NCBI RefSeq assembly: GCF_019704555.1
Contig: NZ_AP024745.1
Span: forward strand, 5,340,501-5,404,500
Direction: 5' to 3'
Source: Actinoplanes sp. L3-i22
Lineage (GTDB): Bacteria; Actinomycetota; Actinomycetes; Mycobacteriales; Micromonosporaceae
DNA length: 64,000 bases
Below, piece after piece: positions 22,298-42,824 of the stretch. Numbering within the stretch: the first letter of the stretch is position 1; each line of letters starts with the position of its first letter. The notes under the pieces are model-generated. The model made no database searches, was not told the DNA's origin, and saw only the letters and a list, made by a program, of their open reading frames with translations. The translations under genes and the position numbers were made by a program.

Positions 22298-22316
22298 TGT
22301 TCCGTTGCAGAATGTC
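22298..22316. promoter_or_regulatory. IclR-box-like site in front of the SDR gene
   Basis: The 19-mer containing TTCCGTTGCAGA matches the reference box CGTTTCGTTGTAGAGAACG at 11 of 19 positions by eye. It overlaps the -10 region of the SDR promoter, 26 bases before the ATG. An adjacent GAAC-AACT-GTTC dyad lies at 22291-22302. This is the weakest of the boxes listed. Confidence 0.35.
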
Positions 22317-22337
22317 GCGGTGATCGGGCGATGTCAA
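22309..22337 (-). promoter_or_regulatory. Promoter of the SDR gene
   Basis: On the minus strand TTGACA (22337-22332) and CATTCT (22314-22309) are 17 bases apart. It mirrors the ferredoxin reductase promoter on the other strand. Confidence 0.5.
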
Positions 22338-22359
22338 GCAACACGCTGGTCACCCGGCG

Positions 22360-22389
22360 TTGACACCCGATGACGGGCTTGGTGATACT
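22360..22389 (+). promoter_or_regulatory. Promoter of the ferredoxin reductase gene
   Basis: TTGACA at 22360-22365 and GATACT at 22384-22389 (18-base spacing; TGATAC at 17). Two operator-like boxes follow directly downstream. Confidence 0.6.
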
Positions 22390-22396
22390 GAATGCT

Positions 22397-22436
22397 CGTT
22401 GCGTTGTATCGGTATGCCGTTCTCTTCAATGACAAG
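22397..22436. promoter_or_regulatory. Two IclR-box-like sites downstream of the reductase promoter
   Basis: Box 1, 22397-22415, keeps CGTT.CGTTGTA of the reference (12 of 19). Box 2, 22418-22436, CGTTCTCTTCAATGACAAG, matches the reverse complement CGTTCTCTACAACGAAACG at 15 of 19. Both lie between the -10 and the start codon, a repressor position. Confidence 0.55.
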
Positions 22437-22447
22437 GACCGGATTCG

Positions 22448-23659
22448 ATGATCCACGTTGTAATCGTCGGCGCGTCCCTGGCCGGTACGCGGGCCGTGCA
22501 GGGCCTCCGCGCCCTCGGGCACACCGGTCCGGTCACGCTCGTCGGGGCGGAGGCCGAGCTTCCGTACGACCGTCCGCCGCTCTCCAAGTCGTTGCTCACC
22601 AGTGACTGGTCGGCGGCCGCGGTCGACGGGGTCCGGCTGATCACCGCCGCGGAGCTCGACCAGCTCGCCGTCACGGTGAGGCTGGGCGTCGCCGCCGTCG
22701 CCCTGGACACCGCGGCCAGGCTCGTCCGGCTGGCCGACGGGACCGAGGTCGCCTACGACGTGCTGGTCATCGCGACCGGGGCCGCGGCCCGGCCCTCGCC
22801 GTGGAATCCCGGGTCGGGGGTCTACCAGCTGCGGACCCTCGACGACGCGCGGGCGATCGCCGCCCGGCTGGCCCGGAGGGAGCCGGTCGTCGTCGTGGGC
22901 GGCGGCTTCATCGGCACCGAGATCGCCGCCGCCGCGGCCGGTCAGGGCTGTCCGGTGGTCGTCGTCGACCCGCTCCCGGAGCCGATGGCCCGGCTGGTCG
23001 GGCCGGAGATCGCCGGGAGCCTGGCCGGCCTGCACCTGCGCAACGGGGTGCGGACCCGCTTCGGCGCCGGGGTCGTCGGCATCGAGGGCGAGGCCGGCGC
23101 CCTCACGGTTTCGCTGGACACCGGCGAGCGGCTGGCCGCCTCGACCGCCGTGGTGGGGATCGGCTCGGTCCCGGCCGTCGAGTGGCTGGCCGGCTCCGGC
23201 CTCAAGCTCGACAACGGCGTGGTGACCGACCGCTTCCTGCGCGCGGTCGGCGCCGACGACGTGTACGCCGTCGGCGACGTCGCCCGCTGGCCGCACTCCG
23301 GTCGCGGCGTCGAGGTGCGGGCGGAGCACTGGACCAACGCCGGTGATCAGGCGCGCTACGTCGCCGCCGCGATCGTGACGGGCACGCCGGACCCCTACGA
23401 GTCCTCCGACTACGTCTGGTCCGACCAGTACGACTGGAAGGTCAACGCGGTCGGCTGGCGTGACCCCGAGGGCAGCACGGTCGTCATCGGCAGCCTCGAC
23501 GACCTGGGCAAGGTGGCCGTCGTGCACACGGATGCGACAGGCGCCCCGTGCGGCGTGGTCACGGTCAACTGGGTCCGCGCGCTCAACCAGGCCCGCCGCC
23601 GGCTGATGGCGGGGGAGTCGGGGGCCACCATCGCCGAGGCCCTGCGGCAGTTGCTGTGA
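22448..23659 (+). CDS. FAD-dependent ferredoxin/NAD(P)H oxidoreductase (putidaredoxin reductase type)
   Basis: 403 residues from ATG 22448. FAD motif VVIVGASLAGTRAVQGLR at the N-terminus, DRPPLSKSLL typical of rubredoxin/putidaredoxin reductases, a central NAD-binding VVVVGGGFIGTEIAAAAA (about 140-157), and the second FAD motif DDVYAVGDVARWP. The C-terminal domain (EHWTNAGDQARYVAAAI...) is as in CamA-like reductases. It passes electrons from NAD(P)H to small Fe-S ferredoxins, here most likely the P450-linked ferredoxins at 28.0, 39.1 or 61.2 kb. The operator-like boxes upstream tie it to the catabolic genes. Confidence 0.9.
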   Translation: MIHVVIVGASLAGTRAVQGLRALGHTGPVTLVGAEAELPYDRPPLSKSLLTSDWSAAAVDGVRLITAAELDQLAVTVRLGVAAVALDTAARLVRLADGTEVAYDVLVIATGAAARPSPWNPGSGVYQLRTLDDARAIAARLARREPVVVVGGGFIGTEIAAAAAGQGCPVVVVDPLPEPMARLVGPEIAGSLAGLHLRNGVRTRFGAGVVGIEGEAGALTVSLDTGERLAASTAVVGIGSVPAVEWLAGSGLKLDNGVVTDRFLRAVGADDVYAVGDVARWPHSGRGVEVRAEHWTNAGDQARYVAAAIVTGTPDPYESSDYVWSDQYDWKVNAVGWRDPEGSTVVIGSLDDLGKVAVVHTDATGAPCGVVTVNWVRALNQARRRLMAGESGATIAEALRQLL

Positions 23660-23673
23660 AGCAGGCGTGAGCG

Positions 23674-24567
23674 TCAGTCCTGCCAGTGGATGTTTCTCGT
23701 GCCGTTGGCCTCGGCCAGCTGCGCGGGCGTCAACTGACCGTGCCGGAGCTTGGCCCCCGCGAGCCACGTCCCGGTCACCGAGGCCGCGTCAAGATCGGCA
23801 CCCCGCAGGTCCGCACCCTTGAGGATGGCCGCGTCCAGGACCGCCTCCCGGAGCCGGGCGTTCCCCAGGCCGGCCGCTTCGAGGTCCGCGCCGTCCAGGC
23901 GCGCCGCGCTGAGCCACGCCCCCTGCAGGCTCACCCCGCGCAGCCGGCCGTTCGTCAGATGGGCCGCGCGCAGCAGGGCTCCGTCGAACATGGCGTTGGT
24001 GAGATCTACCCCGTCCAGGTAGGCGCCGCGTAGGTCGACCGGAACCGACGATCGACTCAGCGGAGCCCGGCCCAGCACGTTGACCGCCGCCTGCACATCA
24101 GGCCGGAGGGCGGACACCTCGGCCGGGTCCGCCGGCAGGGGACAGGCGGCGCGGACGAACGTGGACAGCACCTCGACGATCGTGCCCGCGTCGCGCGGCG
24201 AGTCGCGCCCGACGCGCTCCAGGGCATAGACCGCACCCACCCGCACCGCGACGTCCTTCTCACCCAGCTGGCCCACGGCCTTCGAGTAACGGTCCGTCAC
24301 CTGGCCGCTGGCGTTGAGAAAATAGGTCCGCCCGGTGAACGTCAGCCCGATCGCGGCCGCGGTGGCGGCCAACAGCGTGACCAGGGTGGACCGCACGTCA
24401 TTCTGGGCCTTCAGTAATTCCGCCGCCGAAATGCCGTCGTCGTGCCCCGCGGTCAGGAGCAGGGGCAAGATCCAAAGAATTGCTACGAGTACGACGACGA
24501 ACGTCAGCGTGAGAGCCAGGACCGCGCGAACCCTCCGCCACCGACGCATCTTCCCCGGCCGATCCAC
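23674..24567 (-). CDS. Membrane protein with pentapeptide repeats
   Basis: 297 residues from ATG 24567. Two N-terminal hydrophobic segments (AVLALTLTFVVVLVAILWILPLLL at about 14-37 and LVTLLAATAAAIGLTF at about 62-77) precede a conserved AVGQLGEKDVAVRVGAVYALERVGRDS helical region. Then come A(D/N)LxGA pentapeptide repeats (VDLRGAYLDGVDLTNAMFDGALLRAAHL ... LKGADLRGADLDAA). This is the architecture of a large actinomycete family without known function. It is divergent from a small sigma factor gene, which may be its regulator. Confidence 0.85.
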   Translation of the reverse strand: MDRPGKMRRWRRVRAVLALTLTFVVVLVAILWILPLLLTAGHDDGISAAELLKAQNDVRSTLVTLLAATAAAIGLTFTGRTYFLNASGQVTDRYSKAVGQLGEKDVAVRVGAVYALERVGRDSPRDAGTIVEVLSTFVRAACPLPADPAEVSALRPDVQAAVNVLGRAPLSRSSVPVDLRGAYLDGVDLTNAMFDGALLRAAHLTNGRLRGVSLQGAWLSAARLDGADLEAAGLGNARLREAVLDAAILKGADLRGADLDAASVTGTWLAGAKLRHGQLTPAQLAEANGTRNIHWQD

Positions 24568-24631
24568 CGTGCCATGCTAGGTGGCGGGCCGGCCGCCTCG
24601 CCAGGTCGCGACCGGGCCGCGGGAGGGTGCG

Positions 24632-25150
24632 GTGACCGACAGGTCCGACGTCGAGAGATACTTCGCCGACTACACGGAGCTGGCGACGTCCATCCTGATG
24701 GCACACGGCGTCCCCGGTTCGGACATTCCTGATCTGATGCAGGAGCTGTGGGCGCTGCTGCTTTCGCATCCACCTCAGGACCAGGCGGCTGCCGCGACAT
24801 TCGTGACCCGGGTCGCGCAGCGGCTGGCTCTGCAGTGGATCCGGCAGAGCGGCCGCGAGTTTCCCCGCGGCCTGCTCGCCGACGTGCCGGCGCCACTTGT
24901 CGACCACACCGACTTCGACGACCTCGGCCTCGGGCTGACCGACGAGGATCTGATCGAGGCGATCCGCCGGCTGCCGCGGCATTGCCAGGTGCTGCTGTTC
25001 ACCCTCCTGGGCGGCCTGCCGGACGGCAACTACGCGCAGCTGTCCCAGGGCGCCGGAATGGCCGTCGGCAGCATCGGCCCGACCCGGCAGCGATGTCTGA
25101 AACGGCTCCGGGAGGACCTGGTCGCCAGGTTCGGGCGCCCCGATCCGTAG
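24632..25150 (+). CDS. Sigma-70 family RNA polymerase sigma factor (ECF type)
   Basis: 172 residues from GTG 24632 with GGGAGGG upstream. Region 2 is IPDLMQELWALLLSHPPQDQAAAATFVTRVAQRLALQWIRQ and region 4 is LIEAIRRLPRHCQVLLFTLLGGLPDGNYAQLSQGAGMAVGSIGPTRQRCLKRLREDL. The region 4 helix-turn-helix, with VGSIGPTRQRCLKRLR, is well formed. No anti-sigma gene is adjacent. The divergent partner is a pentapeptide-repeat membrane protein, a common actinomycete pairing whose meaning is unknown. Confidence 0.8.
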   Translation: MTDRSDVERYFADYTELATSILMAHGVPGSDIPDLMQELWALLLSHPPQDQAAAATFVTRVAQRLALQWIRQSGREFPRGLLADVPAPLVDHTDFDDLGLGLTDEDLIEAIRRLPRHCQVLLFTLLGGLPDGNYAQLSQGAGMAVGSIGPTRQRCLKRLREDLVARFGRPDP

Positions 25151-25177
25151 CCGGAACGGGGCGCAGCCACCCGGCCG

Positions 25178-26401
25178 TCAGGCGACCTGCTCGGCGAGCG
25201 AGTCGGCGAACACCACCCGGTCGGCGATCATCGCGTCGACCTCCGCCTCGGAGAACCCCAGTTCGTCGAGCATGATTCCGGCGGTGTCGGCCCCGAGTGC
25301 CGGCGGATAGACCGGCTGGACCGGCGTGGTGCCGACGAACCGGATCGGGGTCGCCACGTTCTCGAACGCGGCCGCCGCGCACTTCACCTCGATCAGGCTG
25401 CCGTCCCCGGCCGCCCGCGCGTCCTGCATGGCCTCCAGCACGTTCTTCACCGGGGCGGCCGGCACCGACGCCGCCGCGAGCGCCTCCACCCAGTCGGCCG
25501 CGGGCCGCTGGGCGAACCGCGCCTCCAGGATCGCCCAGAGCGCGTGCTTGTTCCGCAGCCGGCTCGCGGCGTCGGTGAAGCGCGGATCGGCGATCAGCTC
25601 GTCGACGCCGAGCACCCGGCACAGGGCCTCCCACATCCGCGGGGTGTTCGCGGTGACGACCAGTTCCCGGCCGTCGCCGCCGCGGAACGACCGGTAGGTG
25701 GCGATCGAGTCGTGGCCGGCGCCCTGCGGTTCCGGCGCGACGCCGTTGAGGTTGGTGTAGAGCGCCTGGTAGGACAGCATCGCGAGCTGCCCGCGCAGCA
25801 TCGACACGTCGATGATCCGGCCGCGGCCGCTCTGCTGGCGGGCCTGCAGGGCGGCCAGCACGCCGATCACCGCGTACAGGCCGGCCACCACGTCGCCGGC
25901 CGGGATGCCGAGGCGGGCGGCCGGGGCGCCCGGGTGCCCGTTGAGGCTCATCACGCCGCTGAGCGCCTGCACGATCATGTCGTAGGCCGGCCGGTCGCGC
26001 AGCTCGCCCTCCTGGCCGAACCCGCTGATCGACGCCCACACCAGGCTCGGGTGCTCGGCGAGCAGGGCGTCCGGGTCCAGGCCGAGCCGGGCCGTCACGC
26101 CGGGCCGGAAGTTCTCGACGACCACGTCGGCCCCGGCGATCAGGCGCCTGAGCACCTCGAGCCCGCGCGGGGTCTTCAGGTTGAGCGCGATGCTGCGCTT
26201 GTTGCGGTTGTTGGCCAGGAAGTACGCGCTCTCGCCGAGCACGGTCGGCCCGACGATCGCCCGGCTGGAGTCGCCGTCCAGGGACTCCACCTTGATCACG
26301 TCCGCGCCGAGGTCGCCGAGCAGCTGGGTCGCCGACGGCCCGGACAGGAACGTGGTCAGGTCGACGACCCGGACCCCGGCCAGCGGCGGCGGCGCGCTCA
26401 C
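25178..26401 (-). CDS. CaiB/BaiF CoA-transferase family protein
   Basis: 407 residues from GTG 26401, which overlaps the thiolase stop by four bases (GTGA). Family III CoA transferase: LAGVRVVDLTTFLSGPSATQLLGDLGADVIKVES, FLANNRNKRSIALNLKTPRGLEVL, the catalytic aspartate in RPAYDMIVQALSGVM (about residue 145), and IPAGDVVAGLYAVIGVLAAL. It moves CoA between carboxylic acids through mixed-anhydride and thioester intermediates. As last gene of the P450-ferredoxin-DUF35-thiolase operon it probably activates an acid produced by ring cleavage, or recycles CoA. Confidence 0.9.
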   Translation of the reverse strand: MSAPPPLAGVRVVDLTTFLSGPSATQLLGDLGADVIKVESLDGDSSRAIVGPTVLGESAYFLANNRNKRSIALNLKTPRGLEVLRRLIAGADVVVENFRPGVTARLGLDPDALLAEHPSLVWASISGFGQEGELRDRPAYDMIVQALSGVMSLNGHPGAPAARLGIPAGDVVAGLYAVIGVLAALQARQQSGRGRIIDVSMLRGQLAMLSYQALYTNLNGVAPEPQGAGHDSIATYRSFRGGDGRELVVTANTPRMWEALCRVLGVDELIADPRFTDAASRLRNKHALWAILEARFAQRPAADWVEALAAASVPAAPVKNVLEAMQDARAAGDGSLIEVKCAAAAFENVATPIRFVGTTPVQPVYPPALGADTAGIMLDELGFSEAEVDAMIADRVVFADSLAEQVA

Positions 26402-27546
26402 GCCGCCTCGAAGATGTGGATCGTGCACGCCCCGTGGTCCAGGCCGGCGGTGCCGCCGCCGGTGACGTGGGTCGCCGCCCAGCGGGCGTCGTCGACCTGC
26501 CGCGCGCCGGCCTGCCCGGTGAGCTGCCAGAACGCCTCGGCGACCTGGGCCACGCCGCTGGCCCCGACCGGGTGCCCCTTGGCGAGCAGCCCGCCGCTGG
26601 GGTTGACCACGACGTCGCCGCCGAAGGTGGTGCGGCCCTCCCGCAGCAGGCTCGCCGCGCTCTGCTTCGCGGTCAGCCCGAACGCCTCGTAGTAGACGAG
26701 CTCGGCGATCGAGAACGCGTCGTGGAACTCGATCATGTCGAGATCGTGCGGTTCGATGCCGGCCTGGGCGTACGCGTCCCGCGCCGACTGATAGGTGATC
26801 TCCGGCTTGGTCATGTCCCGGAAGCCCTCCTCGACCTGTCCGGAGTGCAGCACCGACGCGGCCACCCGGGCGGCCCGGCCGGCGTCCAGCCGGTTGCGGG
26901 CCCGCTCGGAGGCGAGCACGACGACCGCCGCCCCGTCCCCGGTCGGGCAGCACATCAGCAGGGTGAGCGGGTCGGCGACCGGGCGGGCCGCGAGCACCTG
27001 CTCGACGGTGACCTCCTGGCGGTACTGCGCGAACGGGTTGAGCGCGCCGTGCCGGCGGGCCTTCACGCTGACCAGCGCCAGGTCCTCGACGGTGGCGTCG
27101 TTCTCGTACAGGTAGCGGGTGGCCCGCATCGCGTAGACCGCGGGCATCACGATGCCCTGCTTGACCTCGCGGTCCTCGGGGGAGAGCGGCAGGGTGCCGC
27201 CGCCGAACTGGGTGAGCTTCTCCACGCCGATGACCACGGCCACGTCGATCAGGCCCTGCGCGATCGCGGTCGTGGCCTCGTGCACCGCGGTGGCGCCGCT
27301 GGAGCAGGCGTTGTCCACGTTGACGGTGGGGACCGTGCCGAGCCCGATCTCCTTGGTGATCCGCTGGCCGGTCATCATGCCGCCGTAGGAGTGGCCGACG
27401 TAGACCGCGTCGACGTCGGACTTGCGCACCCCGGCGCGCTGCAGGGCGTCGATGAGCGGTGACACGGCCAGGCCCACGTAGGAGGAGCCGCGGTACTTGC
27501 CGAACGGGATCATCGAGGCGGAGATGACGTACACGTCTTCAGTCAT
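26398..27546 (-). CDS. SCPx-type thiolase (lipid-transfer protein family)
   Basis: 382 residues from ATG 27546. Thiolase fold: catalytic Cys in VNVDNACSSGATAVHEA (about residue 82), His in MIEFHDAFSIAELVYYEA and KGHPVGASGVAQVAEAFWQL. Sequence style (DVDAVYVGHSYGG, GVEKLTQFG) is that of SCP-x/Ltp thiolases and steroid aldolases rather than of biosynthetic thiolases. Such proteins often need a DUF35 partner, which lies directly upstream (17-base gap). Role: thiolytic or retro-aldol cleavage of a CoA thioester in the catabolic pathway. Whether it acts as thiolase or aldolase cannot be told from sequence alone. Confidence 0.85.
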   Translation of the reverse strand: MTEDVYVISASMIPFGKYRGSSYVGLAVSPLIDALQRAGVRKSDVDAVYVGHSYGGMMTGQRITKEIGLGTVPTVNVDNACSSGATAVHEATTAIAQGLIDVAVVIGVEKLTQFGGGTLPLSPEDREVKQGIVMPAVYAMRATRYLYENDATVEDLALVSVKARRHGALNPFAQYRQEVTVEQVLAARPVADPLTLLMCCPTGDGAAVVVLASERARNRLDAGRAARVAASVLHSGQVEEGFRDMTKPEITYQSARDAYAQAGIEPHDLDMIEFHDAFSIAELVYYEAFGLTAKQSAASLLREGRTTFGGDVVVNPSGGLLAKGHPVGASGVAQVAEAFWQLTGQAGARQVDDARWAATHVTGGGTAGLDHGACTIHIFEAA

Positions 27547-27562
27547 GGGGGGTCCTTTTCGG

Positions 27563-27955
27563 TCAGGCGCCGGCGGACGGCGTGAAGAACCAGTCGTCGC
27601 CGTCGACGACGAGCTCGACGGGCGCGTCCGGCCGCAGCGGGGCCGGGCCCTCGCGCAGGTCGGCCAGCGTGCGCACGTCGTCGTCGAGGTCGACGTAGCC
27701 GACCGCGCGCACCCCGTCCCCGCCCACGTGCAGCCGGGTGAAGGAGTACAGGACGCCGGTGGCCGGCAGCGGGACGCGCGAGACGGCGCGGCTCACGCAG
27801 GTGCTGCACACGACCCGGGCGCCGATCATCGTCCGGCCGCAGTCGTCGCAGCGGGTGCCGACCAGGCGGCGGCCCACGTCGAAGGTGCCGAGCGGGTCGT
27901 CGCCGTCCAGGTCGGCGATCGGTGTGGAGACCGGAGCCTCGGGCGTGGTGCTCAC
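27563..27955 (-). CDS. DUF35 OB-fold/zinc-ribbon protein, partner of the thiolase
   Basis: 130 residues from ATG 27955; the start overlaps the ferredoxin stop by four bases. A zinc ribbon (CDDCGRTMIGARVVCSTC, about residues 36-53) precedes an OB-fold (GVLYSFTRLHVGG...AVGYVDLDDDVRTLADLRE). DUF35 proteins form complexes with Ltp-type thiolases or aldolases in CoA-thioester catabolism, for example of steroid side chains. Its position immediately before the thiolase fits that partnership. Confidence 0.85.
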   Translation of the reverse strand: MSTTPEAPVSTPIADLDGDDPLGTFDVGRRLVGTRCDDCGRTMIGARVVCSTCVSRAVSRVPLPATGVLYSFTRLHVGGDGVRAVGYVDLDDDVRTLADLREGPAPLRPDAPVELVVDGDDWFFTPSAGA

Positions 27956-28176
27956 GACGTACCCCCCAATTGTTTATCGGACGAGGCACGGGCGAGGGAT
28001 CGGGTCGGGCACACGCTGATCGCCATGTCGATCTTGTCGTCGGGGTCGCCGTGGGCGTCGATGACGACCGCGACGTCGATGTCGTCGAGGTCGAACGTGT
28101 GCGGGGCGTAGAACGTGCACTGGCCCGAGCCCATGCAGCGATCCCGGTCGACGGTGATCTCCGGGTCCGCGCTCAT
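27952..28176 (-). CDS. P450-associated ferredoxin, [3Fe-4S]-type
   Basis: 74 residues from ATG 28176, overlapping the P450 stop (ATGA). Cluster ligands are C-MGSGQ-C (residues 14 and 20) and the Cys in SVCPT; the central position of the first motif is Ser instead of a fourth Cys, as in ferredoxins that serve bacterial P450s. It should carry single electrons from a ferredoxin reductase (22448 or 37246) to the P450 just upstream. Confidence 0.85.
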   Translation of the reverse strand: MSADPEITVDRDRCMGSGQCTFYAPHTFDLDDIDVAVVIDAHGDPDDKIDMAISVCPTRSLARASSDKQLGGTS

Positions 28177-29435
28177 CAGGCGAACTCCAGGTAGAGGTGG
28201 GTGTGGCCGCGGAACTTGTAGCTCTGCATCAGCTCCCAGTGGCGCTCCCCGGCCGGGCCGTGGTGCTGGTCCGAGATGGTGATCCGCTCGGTGCGCGCGA
28301 GCAGCCGCTGGATCGAGAAGACCGCCTCGGCGCGGGCCAGCGGCGCGCCCGGGCAGGTGTGGATGCCGCGGCCGAAGGCCAGGTGCTGGCGGGCGTTGGC
28401 GCGCTTGACGTCGAACGCGCCGGGGTCGTCGAAGACCCGCGCGTCGCGCCCGGCGGCCCCGTGCAGCAGCATCACCACCGTCCCGGGGGCGAGGTCGAGG
28501 CCGCCGATGCTGGTGGCGACCTTGGTGAGCCGGAACGAGCCGCGGATCGGCGCCTCGATGCGCAGCACCTCCTCGATGAACTTGGGCACCAGCGCGGGCT
28601 CGCGGCGCAGCAGGTCCTGCAGCTCGGGGTCCTCGGCGATCCGCGCCAGCGAGATGCCCAGCAGTTGCACGGTCGTCTCGTTGCCGGCCGCGAACAGGTT
28701 CGCGGCGATCCGGGCGACCTGGATCGGCTCGGGCAGCGAGCCGTCCGGGAAGGTGGCCAGGGCCATGCCGGTCAGGATGTCGCCGGCCGGGTCGGCCCGC
28801 CGCTCCTCGATCTGCCGCACGAAGTAGCCGTAGAGCCGCTCCAGGCTGTTGTGCCCGGTCTTCTTCAGCTCGAGGTTGCCCAGCATCGGCGCCTCGGTGG
28901 CCAGCTGATCGATCAGCATCAGGTGATCGGATTCGGGCACCCCGAGCAGGTCGGCGACCGCGAGGATCGCGTAGCGCTTGGCGTACCTCCAGATGAACTC
29001 GACCTCGCCGGCGGGCAGCAGCTCGTCCAGGAACCGGTCCGCGGTGCTGCGCAGGAACTCCTCGTTCTCCTTGAGCCGCTTCGGCGTGATCAGGCCCATC
29101 AGCAGCGCCCGGTGGTCGGTGTGCATCGGCGGGTCGAACGTGACGATCTGGTCGTTGGTCGGGAAGTGCTCCCGGTACCGCTCCAGCAGCTCGGTCAGGT
29201 CGTCGCCGACCAGCTCGACGGGCAGGTCGAGGACCGGGCCGCCGGTCCGGTTGATCGAGGAGTAGACCTCGGGCTGGTGGTAGACCTGCAGCGCCTCCTC
29301 GTAACCGGTGACGATGACGACCCCGTACTTCGACTCGCGCCACACCGGGTGGTTGGCCAGCATGTAGTCGAAATAGGGAGCCGAGTTCGCCGCCACGCCG
29401 GCGTCGGTGAAGTAGTCGATCTCCGCGATGCTCAT
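28176..29435 (-). CDS. Cytochrome P450 (first of three)
   Basis: 419 residues from ATG 29435, which has AGGAAGGGG upstream. Haem-binding loop FGRGIHTCPGAPLAR (Cys about residue 361), ExxR in EEVLRIEAP, and I-helix AAGNETTVQ, where Asn replaces the usual His of AGHET. The N-terminal half has FDPPMHTDHRALLMGLITPKRL, the C-helix region. It is the first gene of a tightly coupled five-gene operon (ferredoxin, DUF35, thiolase, CaiB), which makes it a catabolic hydroxylase. A TTGACA-type promoter and an operator-like box lie upstream. Subfamily and substrate are not assignable from sequence alone. Confidence 0.9.
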   Translation of the reverse strand: MSIAEIDYFTDAGVAANSAPYFDYMLANHPVWRESKYGVVIVTGYEEALQVYHQPEVYSSINRTGGPVLDLPVELVGDDLTELLERYREHFPTNDQIVTFDPPMHTDHRALLMGLITPKRLKENEEFLRSTADRFLDELLPAGEVEFIWRYAKRYAILAVADLLGVPESDHLMLIDQLATEAPMLGNLELKKTGHNSLERLYGYFVRQIEERRADPAGDILTGMALATFPDGSLPEPIQVARIAANLFAAGNETTVQLLGISLARIAEDPELQDLLRREPALVPKFIEEVLRIEAPIRGSFRLTKVATSIGGLDLAPGTVVMLLHGAAGRDARVFDDPGAFDVKRANARQHLAFGRGIHTCPGAPLARAEAVFSIQRLLARTERITISDQHHGPAGERHWELMQSYKFRGHTHLYLEFA

Positions 29436-29461: not shown

Positions 29462-29480
29462 TGTTTCGCTGTAGCGAACG
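29462..29480. promoter_or_regulatory. IclR-box-like palindrome upstream of the P450 operon
   Basis: TGTTTCGCTGTAGCGAACG matches the reference box CGTTTCGTTGTAGAGAACG at 16 of 19 positions. Its core TTCGCT-GT-AGCGAA is a full dyad around the middle two bases. It lies 27 bases before the ATG, downstream of the promoter. Confidence 0.6.
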
Positions 29481-29505
29481 TCTGTCCTGTTATGCAGCGT
29501 GCTCA

Positions 29506-29584: not shown

Positions 29585-29603
29585 TATTTCGTTGTAGAGT
29601 AAC
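29585..29603. promoter_or_regulatory. IclR-box-like site in front of the cyclase-family gene
   Basis: It contains TTTCGTTGTAGAG, identical over 13 bases to the reference box at 42646. It lies between the -10 and the ATG at 29628. Confidence 0.6.
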
Positions 29604-29627
29604 GGTGTTCGGTTTAAGGAGAAGCAG

Positions 29628-30593
29628 ATGACCGAGGATCCGCTCGCCCCGTGGCTGCGTGCGATCGCCACGAAGCACGACGCCGAGCGTCACACCGCCG
29701 GAACGCAGTGCCGCGGCTCGGTCGCGCTGATCGACGAGGCGGCCCGCCTGCGCGGCGTCGCCGAGGTCCGCCTCGGAAAGGCGATCTCCCTCGAACGCGA
29801 GGTGGAGACCCGGCCCGCCCAGCTCGCCCGGCTCGCCGAGGCCGCCGCCGAGGAGAAACGGCAGTGGCAGGCGCTGGCCCAGGCCGAGCTCCCGGACGGC
29901 CACGGCTCGGTGGACCTGCAGGTCAAGGTCGGTCTCTACGGCCGCTCGGCGCACGGCGGCGACGTCATCTCCTACGACGCCCACGGCGTGCACAACACCC
30001 ACATGGACGGCCTGGCCCACCTCGGCACCGACGCCACCTGGCACGGCCCGATCCCGGTCGAGAACTCCCGGACCGACGAGGACACCATCGTCAACTGGGC
30101 CCAGCACGGCATCGCCACCCGCGCCGTCCTGCTGGACATCCCCGCGGCTCGCGGCACGGACTGGGTCACCGCCGACCAGCCGGTCACCGCCGACGACCTG
30201 GACGCCGCCCTGACAGTCCCCCTCGAACCCGGCGACGCCCTGCTCATCTACCAGGGCCGCGACCGCTTCGAAGCGGCCGGCCACCGCTACACCCCGGGCG
30301 CGGTCTTCCAGGCCCGCCCCGGCATCGGCGAATCCGGCGCCAAGTGGATCGCCGCCCACGATCCGGGCGTCGTCCTCTGGGACTTCCACGACGCCCGCAG
30401 CAACCCCCGATTCGCCCTGGAGGTCCACTCGCTGATCTTCGCCATCGGCCTCTGCCTGATCGACAACAGCCTGCTCGGCCCGGCCGCCGCCGCCCTCCGG
30501 TCCGCCGGCACCGCCACCGGCCTGCTGGTCGCCGCCCCGACCGCGATCCACCGCTCCACCGGCGTGTTGATCAACCCACTGCTCCTGTACTGA
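29628..30593 (+). CDS. Cyclase-family metal-dependent hydrolase (PF04199 type)
   Basis: 321 residues from ATG 29628, preceded by AAGGAGA. The metal-binding motif HNTHMDGLAHLG (about residues 124-135) is the HxxxHxDxxxH pattern of kynurenine formamidase and related cyclases; a second His-containing stretch VVLWDFHDARSNP and EVHSLIFAIGLCLIDN follow. Family members hydrolyse amides or lactones or open rings. Next to a Baeyer-Villiger enzyme, lactone hydrolysis is attractive but unproved. It is divergent from the P450 operon with shared operator-like boxes. Confidence 0.8.
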   Translation: MTEDPLAPWLRAIATKHDAERHTAGTQCRGSVALIDEAARLRGVAEVRLGKAISLEREVETRPAQLARLAEAAAEEKRQWQALAQAELPDGHGSVDLQVKVGLYGRSAHGGDVISYDAHGVHNTHMDGLAHLGTDATWHGPIPVENSRTDEDTIVNWAQHGIATRAVLLDIPAARGTDWVTADQPVTADDLDAALTVPLEPGDALLIYQGRDRFEAAGHRYTPGAVFQARPGIGESGAKWIAAHDPGVVLWDFHDARSNPRFALEVHSLIFAIGLCLIDNSLLGPAAAALRSAGTATGLLVAAPTAIHRSTGVLINPLLLY

Positions 30594-32518: not shown

Positions 32519-32675
32519 CGGTCTCCCTTTTCCTCACGTGTGCTCAGATCCTACGACCGCAATCAGCTTGAAACTTGCTACGAACGTACTGGAAGTCTTC
32601 AACTTTTGAGCACAGCGGCTTATATTTCGTCGCAGGACGCCGGGACGGCGGCCAGGGACGAGCGAGGGTGGGCCA
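32519..32675. promoter_or_regulatory. Divergent promoter region, SDR / Baeyer-Villiger monooxygenase
   Basis: It is relatively AT-rich. Inverted TGTGCTCA (32539-32546) and TGAGCACA (32607-32614) enclose a stretch with CTACGAACG. TTTCGTCGCAG at 32625-32635 partly resembles the IclR box (9 of 19). No clear -35/-10 pair stands out, and the operator assignment is weak. Confidence 0.35.
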
Positions 32676-36292: not shown

Positions 36293-37114
36293 TCAGCCGC
36301 CGGCCTTCGCCGACTCGGGGCGGGCGCCGGTGAAGCGCCGGGTCAGCAGCGCCGCCGCCTCCTTGACGAGCGCGGTCATCTCGGCCGTCCGGGTGGCGTT
36401 GAAACGCGTCTCCGGAATGGTGATGCCGACATCGCCGATCACCGCGTCGGCCGGCCCCAGCACCGGGGCGGCGATGGCGATCGCCCCGTCGATCCGCTCC
36501 CCGTGCGACAGCGCGTACCCGTCCCGCCGGATCTGGGCCAGCCGCTCGGCCAGCTTGTCCGCGTCGACCAGCGTCCGCTCGGTGAGCGCGTCCAGCGCCC
36601 CGTGGATGATCTGATCCTGCACGTCGGCGGGCAGGAAGGCGAGGATCGCCAGCCCGCTGGCCCCGGCGTGCAGCGGCAGCCAGACGCCCTGGGGCACCGT
36701 GTACCGCAGCGGGTGCGGGGACTCGACCGAGACCGCGAACATCAGCCGGCGGCGCTGTTCGTTGTAGACCGCGAAGAACGACGACTCGCCGCTCTCCTTG
36801 CTCAGGTCGGCCAGCACGTCGGTGGCCGCCTCGCGGATCGGGAAGCGGGTGCTGGCGGTCCAGGCCAGGCGCAGGAACTCCATGCCCAGGCGGTAGTTGC
36901 CGGCCGGGGTGCGCGACACCATCCCCAGCTCCTCCAGGTCGCCGAGCAGCCGGTGGGCGGTGCTGGCGCTGACCCCGAGACGGTTGCCGAGCTCGCGCAC
37001 GCCGTAGGACGGCTCGCCGCTGTCGACCATCAGGGTGACGATCTCGATCCCGCGCGCCAGGGGATGACGCTGCCGGTCGGGGGCGCTCGGCGCTCCGGTT
37101 GCCTGCGTGTCCAC
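36293..37114 (-). CDS. IclR-family transcriptional regulator, candidate controller of the catabolic locus
   Basis: 273 residues from GTG 37114 with AGAGGAG six bases upstream; no ATG fits. The winged helix is ARGIEIVTLMVDSGEPSYGVRELGNRLGVSASTAHRLLGDLEELGMVSRTPAGNYRLG (about 22-78). The C-terminal effector domain includes LPLHAGASGLAILAFLP, GYALSHGERIDGAIAIAAPVLGPADAVIGDVGITIPETRF. IclR proteins control aromatic, terpenoid and other catabolic operons. A box GGTTCTCTTAAACAAAACA 46 bases upstream is alike to those near the P450, reductase, MFS and ALDH promoters, which suggests autoregulation and a shared regulon. Confidence 0.88.
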   Translation of the reverse strand: MDTQATGAPSAPDRQRHPLARGIEIVTLMVDSGEPSYGVRELGNRLGVSASTAHRLLGDLEELGMVSRTPAGNYRLGMEFLRLAWTASTRFPIREAATDVLADLSKESGESSFFAVYNEQRRRLMFAVSVESPHPLRYTVPQGVWLPLHAGASGLAILAFLPADVQDQIIHGALDALTERTLVDADKLAERLAQIRRDGYALSHGERIDGAIAIAAPVLGPADAVIGDVGITIPETRFNATRTAEMTALVKEAAALLTRRFTGARPESAKAGG

Positions 37115-37159
37115 GTCCTGCTCCTCTGCCTGTCCGGGAATCCCGCTCAGTCGAATGGC

Positions 37160-37178
37160 GGTTCTCTTAAACAAAACA
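37160..37178. promoter_or_regulatory. IclR-box-like site in front of the iclR gene
   Basis: GGTTCTCTTAAACAAAACA matches the reverse form of the reference box, CGTTCTCTACAACGAAACG, at 14 of 19. On the minus strand TAGTGT, a possible -10, ends one base before it. Confidence 0.55.
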
Positions 37179-37203
37179 CTAGCAGGGCGGACGTACGACG
37201 AAA

Positions 37204-37227: not shown

Positions 37228-37245
37228 CTCTTCGCGGGTGGCCGG

Positions 37246-38556
37246 TCAGGCGATGCCGGCCGCCGCCAGCATGCTCGCCGTGTCGTGCAGCTTGACCCGG
37301 TCGCGCCCGTGCGCGGCGCCCAGCCGCGCCTCGGCGGCCTCGATGCGCTGCCAGCGGTCCCAGCCGACCACCGGTACGCCGCGCGAGCGCAGCAGGTCGT
37401 CGACCGGCCCGCCGGCCAGGTCCCGATCGAGCAGGGCGGGAGCGTCGGCCAGGAGGCTGGCCACGGTCTCGCTCGCGCACAGGCGATTGGTGCCGATCAC
37501 GCCGCTGGGTCCGCGCTTGGCCCAGCCCACGACGTAGAGCCCGCCGGCCCGGTCGACGCGGGAGTCGGCGTGCGGGATCGTCCCGGTGGCGTCGTCGAAG
37601 GGGGCGCCCGGCAGCGGCGTGCTGCGGTAGCCCACCGCCGGCAGGACCAGGCCGGCGTCGATCTCCTCGACGACGGTGGGATCGCTGGTGCGGGCCAGGC
37701 GCACCGTCCGCACGCCGGTGTCGCCGGTGAACTCGATCGGGGTCCGGTCGAACAGCAACCGGATGCGCCGGTCGCGGCCCGCCGGCTCCCGGTCGGCGAT
37801 CTTCTGCAGCGAGGCGAGCAGCCGCTTGGTGGCCGGCTCACCGGCGACGCGAGAGAGCTCGGCGTCGGGCAGCGCCAGGTCCGCGGGCTCGACGATCAGG
37901 TCGGCGCTCGGCACCGCGGCCAGTTCGAGCAGCTCCTTGTTGGTGAACCTGGCGAACCGCGGGCCGCGGCGCCCGACGACGGTGACCTCGCGGACCGCGT
38001 GCCCGGCCAGCGCGTCGATCACGTGCTCGGGCACGTCGGTGCGGCGCAGCTCGTCCGGGGTACGGACCAGCATGCGCGCCACGTCGAGCGCCACGTTGCC
38101 GACGCCCACGACCATGGCCCGCTCGGCGGCCAGCAGCGCGGTGTCGAAGGTCGCGTCCGGGTGGCCGCTGTACCAGGACACGAAGTGCCGGGCGGGCAGG
38201 ACGCCGGGCAGGTGCTCGCCGGGGACACCGAGCCGGCGGTCCAGCGGCGCGCCGGCGGCCAGCACCACGGCGTCGTAGCGGGCACGCAGCTCGTCGAGGC
38301 CGAGGTCGGCGCCGACTGTCACGTTGCCGAGGAACCGCACGCGGGGGGACTCGAACGTCTCGGCCAGCGCGGCGACGATCGACTTGATCTTCTGGTGGTC
38401 CGGCGCGACGCCGTACCGGACCAGGCCGAACGGGGTGGGCAGGCGCTCGAACACGTCCACCGCGACGTCCCGGTCGGCCTCCTCGGTCAGGATCTGCGCG
38501 CAGTACAGGCCGGCCGGGCCGGAGCCGACGATCGCGACACGCAGCGGGCGGGCCAT
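37246..38556 (-). CDS. FprA-type ferredoxin/adrenodoxin-NADP+ reductase
   Basis: 436 residues from ATG 38556, overlapping the ferredoxin stop (TGATG). FAD motif RVAIVGSGPAGLYCAQIL, RLPTPFGLVRYGVAPDHQKIK (adrenodoxin reductase signature), NADP motif MVVGVGNVALDVARMLVR and C-terminal YVVGWAKRGPSGVIGTNR are all in place at the family's length. It passes electrons from NADPH to the FdxA-type ferredoxin encoded just upstream and perhaps on to the P450s. This gives the locus a second reductase besides the putidaredoxin-reductase type at 22.4 kb. Confidence 0.9.
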   Translation of the reverse strand: MARPLRVAIVGSGPAGLYCAQILTEEADRDVAVDVFERLPTPFGLVRYGVAPDHQKIKSIVAALAETFESPRVRFLGNVTVGADLGLDELRARYDAVVLAAGAPLDRRLGVPGEHLPGVLPARHFVSWYSGHPDATFDTALLAAERAMVVGVGNVALDVARMLVRTPDELRRTDVPEHVIDALAGHAVREVTVVGRRGPRFARFTNKELLELAAVPSADLIVEPADLALPDAELSRVAGEPATKRLLASLQKIADREPAGRDRRIRLLFDRTPIEFTGDTGVRTVRLARTSDPTVVEEIDAGLVLPAVGYRSTPLPGAPFDDATGTIPHADSRVDRAGGLYVVGWAKRGPSGVIGTNRLCASETVASLLADAPALLDRDLAGGPVDDLLRSRGVPVVGWDRWQRIEAAEARLGAAHGRDRVKLHDTASMLAAAGIA

Positions 38557-38876
38557 CAGCTCCCCTGGGGCGGCAGCTGAACGACGTAGTCGACGTCGTG
38601 CTCGATCCGGCCGAGCTTGCGGGCGCCCTTGAGCGGGCCGGTCGCCTCGAAGAACTCGGCGTTGAGGTCGAGGAACTTCTCGTCCTCGCCGGCCAGGTCG
38701 CCGTCGAAGCGGATCGCCGACATCGGGCACACCTCTTCGCAGGCGCCGCAGTCGATGCACTGGTCCGGGTTGATGTACATCATCCGGGCGCCCTCGTAGA
38801 TGCAGTCGGCCGGGCAGACCTGGATGCAGCTCTTGTCCTGAACGTCGACGCAGCCCTGCGTCACCACGAAGGTCAT
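38556..38876 (-). CDS. Seven-iron ferredoxin (FdxA type)
   Basis: 106 residues from ATG 38876 with GGAGAAG upstream. First cluster CVDVQDKSC...CP (3Fe-4S) and second CIDCGACEEVCP (4Fe-4S) follow the FdxA order, and the C-terminal tail EFFEATGPLKGARKLGRIEHDVDYV is that of actinobacterial 7Fe ferredoxins. It is the natural partner of the FprA-type reductase in the same operon. Confidence 0.9.
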   Translation of the reverse strand: MTFVVTQGCVDVQDKSCIQVCPADCIYEGARMMYINPDQCIDCGACEEVCPMSAIRFDGDLAGEDEKFLDLNAEFFEATGPLKGARKLGRIEHDVDYVVQLPPQGS

Positions 38877-38925
38877 GTTCTTCTCCAACGGAACGTATGT
38901 CACACACAACGGGACGGGCTCCGGT

Positions 38926-38946
38926 CGTACCGAAGCAAGGTTTTGA
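38926..38946. repeat. Short intergenic repeat, copy 1
   Basis: CGTACC, then G, then AAGCAAGGTTTTGA. The same 21 bases with one change occur at 62111-62131, 23 kb away and also between genes. A looser relative (CGTACCGTAAGCGGATTTTGA) lies at 3910-3930. Function unknown. Confidence 0.45.
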
Positions 38947-39007
38947 CGGCCCGGCCCGGTGGCCGCAGCAGTGAGTGGCCGAACGGGATGGATGTTCGGT
39001 TGAGCGG

Positions 39008-39205
39008 TCAGTCGGCGAGCGAGAGGGCGCGGCCCGGGCAGACGTTGACCGCTTCCCGGGCCCGGGCGAGTCCGGCGTCGTCGTGCGGTTGCGCGCGGAG
39101 CAGGACGACCAGGCCGTCGGCGTCGTCCTGGTCGAAGGCGTCCGGGTCGACCAGGACGCACTGCCCGGAGCCGACGCAGCGGTCCCGGTTGGCCTCGAGG
39201 TGCAT
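39008..39205 (-). CDS. P450-associated ferredoxin, [3Fe-4S]-type (second)
   Basis: 65 residues from ATG 39205, two bases after the P450 stop. Ligands are C-VGSGQ-C and the Cys in NVCPG. It should donate electrons to the P450 encoded directly upstream in the same operon. Confidence 0.85.
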   Translation of the reverse strand: MHLEANRDRCVGSGQCVLVDPDAFDQDDADGLVVLLRAQPHDDAGLARAREAVNVCPGRALSLAD

Positions 39206-39207
39206 GC

Positions 39208-40377: not shown

Positions 40378-40493
40378 GGCGGGCTCCTGGGAGGCGCTAA
40401 GCTGTAAACGGAAGGTCATCGTCCGGTTATCTCTGCGAGGCTAATCACACGATGCCGTCCCCGGCCATACTTTTCGACAGGGGATTTTAAAAA

Positions 40494-41144: not shown

Positions 41145-41153
41145 AACAGTCGT

Positions 41154-42626
41154 TCATGCGGAGAGATGGGTCAACTGACCTTGCGACTCCGCCTGGCCGA
41201 GGTCGCCGGCCGTCTCGCCGAGCGTGCCCTTGCGGATGAACAGCGCCACCACGAAGGCCAGCACCGCGCCGACCGCGATGATCGCGAACAGGATGTTGTA
41301 GCTGGCATGGGTGCTGAACGGGGTGCCCTGGATCAGGTGCTGGGACAGGATGGTCGTCCCGACCGAGGTGCCGACGGCCGCGAACGCGTTCTGGGTGACC
41401 ATGTAGAAGCCGGACACCTCGCTGGTGTTCTCGCCGTGCACGCCCTCGACGATCAGGTTCGGCAGCGAGCTGAGCATGAATCCGGTGGCGCAGGTCAGCA
41501 CGAGCTGCGAGACGATCCACCCGGCGACCGTGCCGAGCAGCAGGGCCGAGAGGACCGCGGCGGCCAGGCCGAACGCGGCGCCGATCAGGAACGCGTTGCG
41601 CGAGCGCCCGCCGCGCGAGAGCCGGCCGCTCAGCGGGGCGATCGCGAAGCCGAGCAGCGAGCAGGCGAACGAGATGTCCCCGGCGACCCCGGCGCTCAGG
41701 CCGAGGCCGACCGGCGCGATCTTCGGCATCTGCATGACCAGCTGGCCGAGGAAACCGGAGATGCCCAGCGTGCCGAAGGAGACCAGCATCGTGACGACCA
41801 GGGTCAGGCCGATCTTGCGCGAGGCGAAGTACCGGACGTTGAGCAGTGGGTTGTCGTGGAAGTACTCCCAGGCCACCCAGGCGGCCAGCACCAGCAGGCC
41901 GCCGGCGATGAAGCCGAGGGTCTTGCCGCTGTCCCAGCCCCAGTTGCTGCTCTCGTGGATGCCGTACATGGCCAGGGCGATGCCCGGCGCGAACAGGATG
42001 CCGCCGAGCCAGTCGATCTTCGCGAAGCCGGTCCGGCTGACCGCCGCCGGCAGCAGGACCGCGCCGGCCGCGGTGACCAGGGCGAGCACCAGGGAGACCA
42101 CGAAGATGTAGTGCCAGCCCCAGGCGTCGTAGATGTTGCCCGCGACGATGTTGCCGGCCGCGCCACCGCACATCGCCGCGCCGGCGACCGTGGCCACCGC
42201 GACCGGCAGGTTCCTACGCGGCAGGTTCTCGCGCAGGATGCCGACGCAGAGCGGGACCAGGCCACCGGCCAGGCCCTGGATCGACCGCCCGGCGATCAGC
42301 ACGGCCAGGCTGTGCGCGAACAGGCTGACCGCCGAGCCGACCACTGACGCGAGCAGCACGACGATCAGGACGTTGCGACGGCCGAAGGCGTCTCCGAGGC
42401 GACCGCTGATGGCCGCCGACGCGGCGCCGACCAGGAGGAACCCGGTGAGGATCCATCCGGCGGCACTGGGCGTGGAGTGGAACTGCTCGATGATCCCGGG
42501 CAGTGCGGTGTACATCATCGTCGCCTCGAACGAGCTGACGACCGCGGCCAGGATCAGGATCGTGATGATCAGCGCGGGGGCGCGCTGGGCCCGCGGCGGC
42601 GCCGTCGGGCCAAGGGAATCTGCCAT
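41154..42626 (-). CDS. MFS transporter, DHA2-like (about 14 TM)
   Basis: 490 residues from ATG 42626; ATG 42641 is an alternative. APALIITILILAAVVSSFEATMMYTALPGIIEQF is the first helix with motif D1-like LPxI; GRLGDAFGRRNVL is motif A and LIAGRSIQGLAGGLVPLCVGI is motif B of the drug:H+ antiporter family. About 14 hydrophobic segments are visible. In a catabolic locus it may import the substrate or expel toxic intermediates. Three operator-like boxes lie in the gap to the divergent ALDH gene, so it is probably induced together with it. Confidence 0.88.
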   Translation of the reverse strand: MADSLGPTAPPRAQRAPALIITILILAAVVSSFEATMMYTALPGIIEQFHSTPSAAGWILTGFLLVGAASAAISGRLGDAFGRRNVLIVVLLASVVGSAVSLFAHSLAVLIAGRSIQGLAGGLVPLCVGILRENLPRRNLPVAVATVAGAAMCGGAAGNIVAGNIYDAWGWHYIFVVSLVLALVTAAGAVLLPAAVSRTGFAKIDWLGGILFAPGIALAMYGIHESSNWGWDSGKTLGFIAGGLLVLAAWVAWEYFHDNPLLNVRYFASRKIGLTLVVTMLVSFGTLGISGFLGQLVMQMPKIAPVGLGLSAGVAGDISFACSLLGFAIAPLSGRLSRGGRSRNAFLIGAAFGLAAAVLSALLLGTVAGWIVSQLVLTCATGFMLSSLPNLIVEGVHGENTSEVSGFYMVTQNAFAAVGTSVGTTILSQHLIQGTPFSTHASYNILFAIIAVGAVLAFVVALFIRKGTLGETAGDLGQAESQGQLTHLSA

Positions 42627-42645
42627 TCTCGCCTCTTTCATTCGG

Positions 42646-42664
42646 CGTTTCGTTGTAGAGAACG
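42646..42664. promoter_or_regulatory. IclR-box reference copy, MFS side
   Basis: CGTTTCGTTGTAGAGAACG, a pseudopalindrome with arms CGTT and AACG, 20 bases before the MFS start codon. Other copies were found by comparison with this one. Confidence 0.6.
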
Positions 42665-42666
42665 CG

Positions 42667-42685
42667 TGATCTCTACAACGTGATC
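42667..42685. promoter_or_regulatory. IclR-box-like site, inverted copy
   Basis: It contains CTCTACAACG, exactly inverse to the core of the adjacent reference box, which makes a head-to-head pair with two bases between. It abuts the -10 of the MFS promoter. Confidence 0.55.
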
Positions 42686-42686
42686 G

Positions 42687-42715
42687 AGTGTGTTGGAGGT
42701 AACAATGGCTGTCAA
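42687..42715 (-). promoter_or_regulatory. Promoter of the MFS gene
   Basis: Minus strand TTGACA (42715-42710), 17 bases, CACACT (42692-42687). Confidence 0.5.
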
Positions 42716-42759
42716 GGACGTGTTACGGGAGGCGACCTTCCAGGCCCACGTCCTTGACA
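42710..42759. repeat. Perfect 13-bp inverted repeat spanning both divergent -35 elements
   Basis: TGTCAAGGACGTG (42710-42722) and CACGTCCTTGACA (42747-42759) are exact inverse copies with a 24-base spacer. Each arm ends in the TTGACA of one of the two divergent promoters. Confidence 0.75.
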
Positions 42760-42782
42760 GTGACCAGCCGTAGTCCGATGCT
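42754..42782 (+). promoter_or_regulatory. Promoter of the aldehyde dehydrogenase operon
   Basis: TTGACA (42754-42759), 17 bases, GATGCT (42777-42782). Confidence 0.55.
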
Positions 42783-42805
42783 GTTCGTGTTTACAATGAA
42801 ACAGT

Positions 42806-42824
42806 CGTTCTACTAAAGGGAACG
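42806..42824. promoter_or_regulatory. IclR-box-like site in front of the aldehyde dehydrogenase gene
   Basis: CGTTCTACTAAAGGGAACG; arms CGTTC and GAACG are exact inverse copies. It matches the reverse reference box at 13 of 19 and lies nine bases before the start codon. Confidence 0.5.

Follow-up and report, generated by a model that had tools for sequence, protein, structure and literature searches.

Tandem 17-bp palindromes as predicted operators of an IclR-family regulator in a catabolic gene cluster of Actinoplanes sp. L3-i22

The stretch of DNA analysed here (64,000 nucleotides, hereafter the window) corresponds to positions 5340501-5404500 of the single 12.01-Mb contig of Actinoplanes sp. 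L3-i22 and carries a predicted catabolic gene cluster with a gene, iclR, for a regulator of the IclR family. Upstream of eight gene groups of this cluster, all within one 20-kb stretch, we found eight copies of a 38-bp element composed of two 17-bp palindromes, which, judging from the sequences, are most likely the operators of the regulator encoded at 36293-37114, acting as a repressor. The computational analysis revealed that these operators are paired at a constant spacing, that, as far as the searches reach, they are restricted to the cluster, that they co-occur with iclR and that they are conserved in a second actinomycete family. An initial annotation of the same DNA had proposed an IclR regulon from a recurrent 19-bp box, and this proposal is supported: iclR and every gene group named there have an operator, operators and iclR orthologues occur together in the same 3 of 67 genomes, and operators precede the same genes in the other family.

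The operator unit and its specificity

All nine boxes listed in the initial annotation exist, with the similarity given there or close to it. The reference box CGTTTCGTTGTAGAGAACG is found exactly at 42646, and its relatives lie at 29462 (16/19), 22418 (15/19), 37160 (14/19), 29585 (14/19, with 13 contiguous identical bases), 42667 and 42806 (13/19 each), 22397 (12/19) and 22298 (11/19), the last of which had been called weak and is nevertheless a box of Operator 1 (22299-22315). The boxes are thus real, but the true unit is not a single 19-bp box; it is a tandem pair of 38 bp, in which two 17-bp palindromes of the type GTTCYGTTSAACRGAAC lie 21 bp apart from centre to centre with a 4-bp spacer. 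This pairing was first seen in two more distant loci, as matches to a 17-bp matrix 21 bp apart. The positions given for the boxes were right, but the partner boxes at 22278, 29484, 29607, 37140 and 42786 and the whole operator at 38878 had been missed. By pair scoring, the window holds the following eight operators, none of which overlaps a called gene. The second score given for each was obtained with a matrix from the other family, and promoter positions are relative to the predicted start point.

Operator 1: 22278..22315, minus strand; boxes 22278-22294 and 22299-22315; before the gene of the short-chain dehydrogenase/reductase (SDR) SDR1 (21538-22263); pair scores 19.6 and 17.3.
Operator 2: 22398..22435, plus strand; boxes 22398-22414 and 22419-22435; before the ferredoxin--NAD reductase (FdR) gene (22448-23659); pair scores 23.7 and 28.0; at +2..+39 of a predicted TTGACA-18-GATACT promoter.
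Operator 3: 29463..29500, minus strand; boxes 29463-29479 and 29484-29500; before the cytochrome P450a gene (28176-29435); pair scores 21.7 and 17.3; at -2..+35 of TTGACA-18-CATCCT.
Operator 4: 29586..29623, plus strand; boxes 29586-29602 and 29607-29623; before the cyclase-family hydrolase gene (29628-30593); pair scores 31.5 and 28.4; at +3..+40 of TTGACA-17-AAGAAT.
Operator 5: 37140..37177, minus strand; boxes 37140-37156 and 37161-37177; before iclR itself; pair scores 31.4 and 27.9.
Operator 6: 38878..38915, minus strand; abutting the start codon of the 4Fe-4S ferredoxin gene (38876), with the FprA-type reductase gene downstream (to 37246); pair scores 21.1 and 15.5.
Operator 7: 42647..42684, minus strand; the reference box and its inverse; before the major facilitator superfamily (MFS) transporter gene (41154-42626); pair scores 36.9 and 29.9; at -4..+33 of TTGACA-17-CACACT.
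Operator 8: 42786..42823, plus strand; boxes 42786-42802 and 42807-42823; before the aldehyde dehydrogenase (ALDH) gene (42833-44329) and SDR3 (44342-45199); pair scores 28.0 and 29.8; at -3..+34 of TTGACA-17-GATGCT.

Symmetrised over 62 boxes from 31 operators of five genomes, the consensus reads, in percent, G67 T80 T73 C65 C54 G53 T86 T66 N A66 A86 C53 G54 G65 A73 A80 C67. It is a GTT-11-AAC palindrome as in Group 1 of the IclR family, and the distance of 21 bp falls within the 18-22 nt between the centres of the tandem sites that a subset of the family possesses. Intergenic gaps were aligned with their counterparts from Winogradskya consettensis and, except for the P450/cyclase gap, from Actinoplanes palleronii; the boxes appeared as conserved islands amid diverged DNA.

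Taken alone, the weaker single boxes are at noise level. At least 13 of 19 bases of the reference box are matched at 11 places in the window, seven of which were on the earlier list (22397 and 22298 fall under this cut), and of the remaining four, at 36755 (14/19, within the coding region of iclR), 49447, 48588 and 38877, only 38877 belongs to an operator. Over the 12.01 Mb, the reference box with up to three mismatches was found at 2 places, both in the cluster (the second being 29462), against 1 for the control. Single-box scanning was dropped as the main test because matches of 13-14/19 arise by chance and because the IUPAC palindrome with up to two mismatches gave 26 places in the whole genome, 3 of them in the cluster, against 13 for the control.

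Unlike the single boxes, the 21-bp pairing separates signal from noise: the eight operators score between 19.6 and 36.9, and the next place in the window reaches 13.3. With a matrix made from five operators of two genomes of genus g319, which belongs to the other family, these eight were again the top eight places of the 64 kb (15.5-29.9; next place 8.8), and the same matrix gave 8 places at a spacing of 21 bp compared to 0-2 at each of 14 other spacings between 17 and 31 bp. Among 1000 permutations of the matrix columns that kept its symmetry, the mean number of places at or above 15.5 was 0.39, no run had 8, and 4 had a place equal to the five best.

A sequence-only covariance model, R1, was built from 17 operators outside the window, taken in both orientations. 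On the whole genome at E≤10, with 150 of 164 first-look candidates scored, it returned nine rows at five places, all in the cluster, with E-values of 0.0019-0.65: Operator 7, the best R1 match of the genome (0.0019), and Operators 1 (0.038), 3 (0.41), 5 (0.55) and 8 (0.60). Within this search, the operators are confined to the regulated genes. The initial annotation had held that equally good matches scattered at random over the genome would speak against its proposal; the reference pattern is found at 2 places and R1 at five, all of them in the cluster, and the proposal withstood this check.

The regulator, its conservation and its mode of action

The regulator to which we assign the operators is encoded as follows.

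IclR-family regulator: 36293..37114, minus strand; 273 amino acids, GTG start; candidate repressor acting at the eight operators.

Its domains place it in the family, with 35.9 bits for PF09339 HTH_IclR (cut-off 22) and 106 bits for PF01614 IclR_C (cut-off 24), and, as is characteristic of IclR proteins, its own gene has a site (37140-37177), whose main box TGTTTTGTTTAAGAGAA has the same 17 bases in three genomes. Orthologues were found in 3 of 354 genomes of its own family and 2 of 401 genomes of family f8, which supplied the loci used for comparison; a scan of named genomes gave 2 loci, and among 396 genomes drawn across the phylum only its own genome had one at E≤1e-75. Of the close relatives, W. 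consettensis and A. palleronii possess this IclR. Proteins at least 57% identical to it occur in Streptomyces, Nocardia, Streptacidiphilus, Micrococcaceae and other groups. In a sample of 67 genomes of the genus, searched with R1 at E≤0.1 and stricter filters that lose weak matches, R1 matches were obtained in 3, exactly the three with an IclR orthologue; these 67 were covered by orthologue searches that were positive for 2 of 60 genomes at E≤1e-60 or for 3 of 354 (own family) at E≤1e-75.

In W. consettensis, eight operators precede the corresponding genes, and the scores fall from 21.4 to 8.4 after them. A. palleronii has four operators of at least 15.0 in one contig stretch (next place 2.7) and, on another contig, three clear operators of at least 22.2 and a weak fourth of 9.7 (next 7.3). 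For Operator 1, the orthologous scores are 21.4 in W. consettensis and 9.7, thus weak, in A. palleronii; for Operator 6, they are 35.4 and 15.0, respectively; Operator 2 has counterparts in both species and in both g319 genomes. The latter, G1034 and G941, belong to the other family and, judging from Rhodococcus relatives, probably to a Rhodococcus-like genus. Their IclR proteins are 55-57% identical to the one of the window, and their clusters contain homologues of SDR1, SDR2, the Baeyer-Villiger monooxygenase (BVMO), the coenzyme A (CoA)-transferase, the thiolase and its OB-fold partner, P450a, FprA and ALDH with 55-85% identity, in a rearranged gene order. FdR relatives are 79% (locus L027), 82% (L049), 71% (L029) and 69% (L030) identical. 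Operators are present in the SDR1/IclR gap and before FdR of both g319 clusters and in the P450a/ALDH gap of G1034.

In the four other IclR-bearing genomes, R1 gave 41 rows at E≤2, every one on a contig of the cluster; 17 of the operators there had served for training. Five places were new to the model (G014:C107 4091, 9898 and 10043; G1034:C573 41444; G941:C15 6221/6224). The place in G1034 lies between relatives of the MFS transporter (53%) and the cyclase (69% over 167 residues), both of which carry an operator in the window, too, and the one in G941 lies upstream of an open reading frame. All five IclR orthologues, and also a second IclR of G941, share the sequence STAHRL in the recognition-helix region. 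At the locus of this second protein (L031; 54% identical), which was left out of R1 training, a weak upstream pair (9680-9717, score 19.0) ranks second in the locus; the second IclR may read a shifted motif.

It could be argued that the operators belong to another regulator, i.e. a TetR or MftR of the cluster or an IclR paralogue, and that iclR is merely one of its targets. The genome holds 13 places matching this IclR, 12 of which are paralogues, genes for TetR1, TetR2 and MftR lie in or beside the cluster, locus L029 has two TetR-family genes of its own, and similar motifs are read by other IclR proteins listed in PMC8222616. Of the four window regulators tested, however, IclR alone has tblastn matches at E≤1e-8 in L029 and L030, loci that have kept the operators, and R1 sites were not found, at the threshold and filters given above, in the 64 genus genomes without an IclR orthologue. 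MftR, moreover, has a different published operator, T-N2-GGCA-N5-TGCC-N2-A (PMC8728441), which is matched at 45291-45307, and the invariant main box lies in front of iclR. Control by one of these other regulators therefore appears quite improbable, and we retain the protein encoded by iclR as the probable regulator.

The initial annotation had placed each box of the three divergent gaps between a TTGACA-type promoter and the start codon, in the position of a repressor site. By prediction, this fits six of the eight promoters: those of SDR1, FdR, P450a, cyclase, MFS and ALDH have a TTGACA hexamer followed after 17-18 bp by a weak -10-like hexamer, and their operators lie within -13..+40 of the predicted start point. 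An operator over or just behind the start fits a repressor that blocks initiation. A tetramer on two palindromes has been described for the IclR family (PMC8222616), and two turns of DNA between the palindromes would fit two dimers of one tetramer on one face of the helix. We propose that IclR binds as two dimers, forming one tetramer, to the two 17-bp palindromes and would thereby cover the start or the DNA just downstream of it at most of the eight promoters, its own included, and block RNA polymerase; the operator before iclR is placed for autoregulation. Release of IclR by an effector, which is probably the substrate or one of its early metabolites, would turn on uptake or export by the MFS transporter, hydroxylation by the P450 with ferredoxin and reductases, oxidation by the mycofactocin-coupled SDR and ALDH, hydrolysis by the cyclase-family enzyme and CoA-linked thiolytic cleavage.

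The opposite sign of control, with IclR mainly as an activator or in a dual role, is in our view unlikely. PcaU/PobR-type members of the IclR family act as activators or in both roles, the nearest NCBIfam models of the present protein include the PcaR/PcaU/PobR family, below cut-off, and its solved relative 5hpf is named an activator. The weak -10 hexamers and the lack of a promoter in a stricter scan (see below) would also suit an activated promoter; a tetramer bound at -13..+40, downstream of TTGACA, as at six of the eight operators, should instead block transcription.

Several results weigh against the assignment of the eight elements to an IclR repressor. As to the promoters, the usual type was not recognised before iclR or the ferredoxin gene, and a scan of 42600-47400 at a stricter threshold (9 of 12) found no promoter, MFS and ALDH included, because the -10 hexamers are weak. 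As to the genes, no IclR operator was found at the second P450, at BVMO or at SDR2, all three likely of the same pathway, and the DNA upstream of P450a in G941 shows no clear pair. As to the operators, the partner boxes 29484, 22398, 37140 and 42786 are weak on their own (5.4-7.5); R1 reports 5 of the 8 genome-wide, three of these at E-values of 0.4-0.6 only, and lacks 22398, 29586 and 38878; 22398 and 29586 are also missing from the search of the window alone, in which 38878 (E 0.69) ranks below 38981-39007, which is not one of the eight. The R1 test is not wholly independent either, because the matrix used to select its training operators contained seven boxes of the window. Finally, in 300 other permutations of the matrices, the eight known operators still took a mean of 2.41 (maximum 7) of the top 8 places, probably because these operators are rich in A+T.

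This last result, together with single matches of 13-14/19 that are plainly due to chance, such as 36755 in coding DNA, could be taken to mean that the repeats merely reflect the likeness of A+T-rich promoter DNA in a genome of 71% G+C. Such an origin is hardly credible in view of the exact spacing of 21 bp, far above all others, the location of all eight outside called genes, their recovery by a matrix from another family and their confinement to a single 20-kb region within 12.01 Mb. We therefore keep to the interpretation as IclR operators. The R1 match at 38981-39007 (E 0.044 in the window; 10.8 bits) lies in the gap before the ferredoxin gene and may be a second site of this unit or due to chance.

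Regulated genes and neighbouring elements

The genes downstream of the operators encode the following proteins.

21538..22263, minus strand: SDR1 (PF13561/PF00106), conserved in L027, L029 and L030.
22448..23659, plus strand: FdR, a HcaD-like ferredoxin--NAD reductase (PF07992, PF14759; best NCBIfam model NF042949, below cut-off).
25178..26395, minus strand: type III CoA-transferase behind P450a (PF02515; 5' end from the matched domain).
26398..27546, minus strand: BbsB-like thiolase (NF053628 below cut-off; best solved relative 7pxp, benzoylsuccinyl-CoA thiolase).
27563..27955, minus strand: OB-fold/zinc-ribbon thiolase partner, BbsA/ChsH2-like (PF01796, PF12172; NF053627 below cut-off).
28176..29435, minus strand: cytochrome P450a, CYP150-like (best solved relative 6dcd, Cyp150A6).
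29628..30593, plus strand: cyclase-family hydrolase (PF04199).
37246..38550, minus strand: FprA-type NADPH-ferredoxin reductase (1lqt FprA, E 1e-98; matched part, 5' end provisional).
38556..38876, minus strand: putative 4Fe-4S ferredoxin of 106 amino acids (open reading frame and cysteine pattern).
41154..42626, minus strand: MFS transporter, DHA2/EmrB-like (PF07690; TIGR00711 below cut-off).
42833..44329, plus strand: ALDH (PF00171).
44342..45199, plus strand: mycofactocin-coupled SDR3 of the carveol dehydrogenase type (TIGR03971, 319.8 against a cut-off of 300).

P450a aligns with Cyp150A6 with 397 bits over 415 residues, the next solved relative reaching 167 bits; CYP families are named by more than 40% identity to a member. 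About 220 bp behind P450a, the genes of the OB-fold protein, thiolase and CoA-transferase continue on its strand and are likely part of the P450a operon. The 4Fe-4S ferredoxin together with the FprA-type reductase, and the HcaD-like reductase, can feed P450a. The best solved relatives of SDR3 are named carveol dehydrogenases, and no relative of solved structure was found for the cyclase-family protein at E≤0.001.

The initial annotation had joined the scattered genes into one pathway. This holds for the gene groups it named, which share the operator, and the ferredoxin/FprA group can be added, but BVMO/SDR2 and the second P450 are probably under other control. The second P450 (39208-40419, with its TetR) was considered as a member of the regulon and dropped for lack of an operator. 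BVMO resembles phenylacetone monooxygenase and OTEMO, the latter an enzyme of camphor breakdown. BVMO and SDR2, conserved in the same clusters, have an element of their own, a palindrome TRAGC-N6-GCTTA in the gap between them (32607-32622), which is found in the same gap in W. consettensis, L029 and L030 (4 of 4) and where a second pathway regulator likely acts; in the window alone, the motif is not significant (with one mismatch allowed, 3 matches compared to 1.1 expected, 3 being reached by 11 of 100 shuffles). The BVMO/SDR2 element and the operator-free second P450 imply that more than one regulator is involved.

Mycofactocin genes adjoin the regulon at 45233-53504, with MftD twice (62% identical), MftR, MftF, MftC, MftB and an MftG-like protein. 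The palindrome at 45291-45307 that fits the MftR operator lies upstream of the second mftD, which starts at 45350, and is conserved in W. consettensis; a similar one is found at 52093 by the mft genes; the window has 4 such matches compared to 1.8 expected, and 13 of 100 shuffles reach 4. Membership of the second mftD in the IclR operon was set aside, as this palindrome and a terminator-like hairpin at 45224-45255 intervene (1 such hairpin is present, and shuffles lead one to expect 1.3). The region 23674-25150, which separates FdR from the CoA-transferase, contains a gene for a pentapeptide-repeat protein and one for a sigma-factor-like protein; the two are likely an insertion, because tblastn against the W. 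consettensis stretch gave no match for them at E≤1e-8. A TnpB/IS605 OrfB-type gene (20295-21548; Cas12f1-like TNB domain) lies at the cluster edge. Elsewhere in the genome, an IclR-type palindrome at 8558711-8558727 lies about 0.6 kb from an IclR paralogue (8557357-8558088) and is possibly the operator of that paralogue.

Our best guess for the substrate, from the enzymes encoded, is an alicyclic, terpenoid-like compound. Tentatively, and as a possible rather than a probable scheme, the cluster could degrade a cyclic terpenoid or ionone-like compound by an undescribed pathway that has spread by transfer between actinomycete families: the CYP150-type enzyme would hydroxylate the compound, a mycofactocin-dependent step would oxidise the alcohol, a Baeyer-Villiger reaction would expand the ring, hydrolysis would follow, and a BbsAB-type thiolase would act on the CoA ester. 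In this scheme, IclR would sense the substrate and the adjoining MftR operator would supply the cofactor via the second mftD, giving two adjoining regulons. The map of regulator and operators is precise and testable for a catabolic cluster, and the operator DNAs can serve as probes in electrophoretic mobility shift assays; the identity of the IclR effector would point toward the substrate. One switch would tie P450, its electron partners, the mycofactocin-linked dehydrogenase, CoA-transferase and thiolase, genes otherwise annotated singly, into one pathway that is present in at least two actinomycete families.

Comparison with known systems

GTT-11-AAC motifs and tandem sites 18-22 nt apart (94 orthologous groups) have been described for the IclR family in a published survey (Suvorova and Gelfand 2021, PMC8222616). 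The operators reported here are like a class in that survey, with a 17-bp GTTYCRYW3RYGRAAC palindrome, tandem sites at 21 nt near gene starts and a small catabolic regulon. The words P450 and monooxygenase are absent from its main text, and its supplementary tables could hold the present group. This regulon was not found described in the open-licence literature, supplementary files being outside the scope, and an open-licence paper joining IclR and mycofactocin concerns, as far as its accessible text goes, other pathways. The IclR regulon is well supported on the level of sequence comparison, and its motif class and tandem arrangement are already published.

A related actinomycete system is NpdR of Rhodococcus opacus HL PM-1, an IclR-family repressor of 2,4,6-trinitrophenol catabolism with the listed motif GTTCMRYATMRTGAWS (PMC8222616). 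The regulator of the window resembles NpdR as a predicted IclR-family repressor with a similar motif in an actinomycete, but the pathway differs, and the listing for NpdR gives no tandem 21-bp operator. CYP150A5 of Mycobacterium marinum converts beta-ionone to 4-hydroxy-beta-ionone (PMC6237146); P450a is a related enzyme by its closeness to Cyp150A6, which does not imply a shared substrate. The ferredoxin of CYP150A5 has 61 residues compared to 106 in the cluster, and the word IclR is absent from the main text of PMC6237146.

The type III CoA-transferase beside BbsB- and BbsA-like proteins recalls the benzylsuccinate pathway. There, beta-oxidation uses the CoA-transferase BbsEF and the thiolase BbsAB. 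Unlike BbsAB, the thiolase subunits of the cluster score below the equivalog cut-offs (341 vs 750 and 49.4 vs 250 bits) and are encoded beside oxygen-dependent enzymes.

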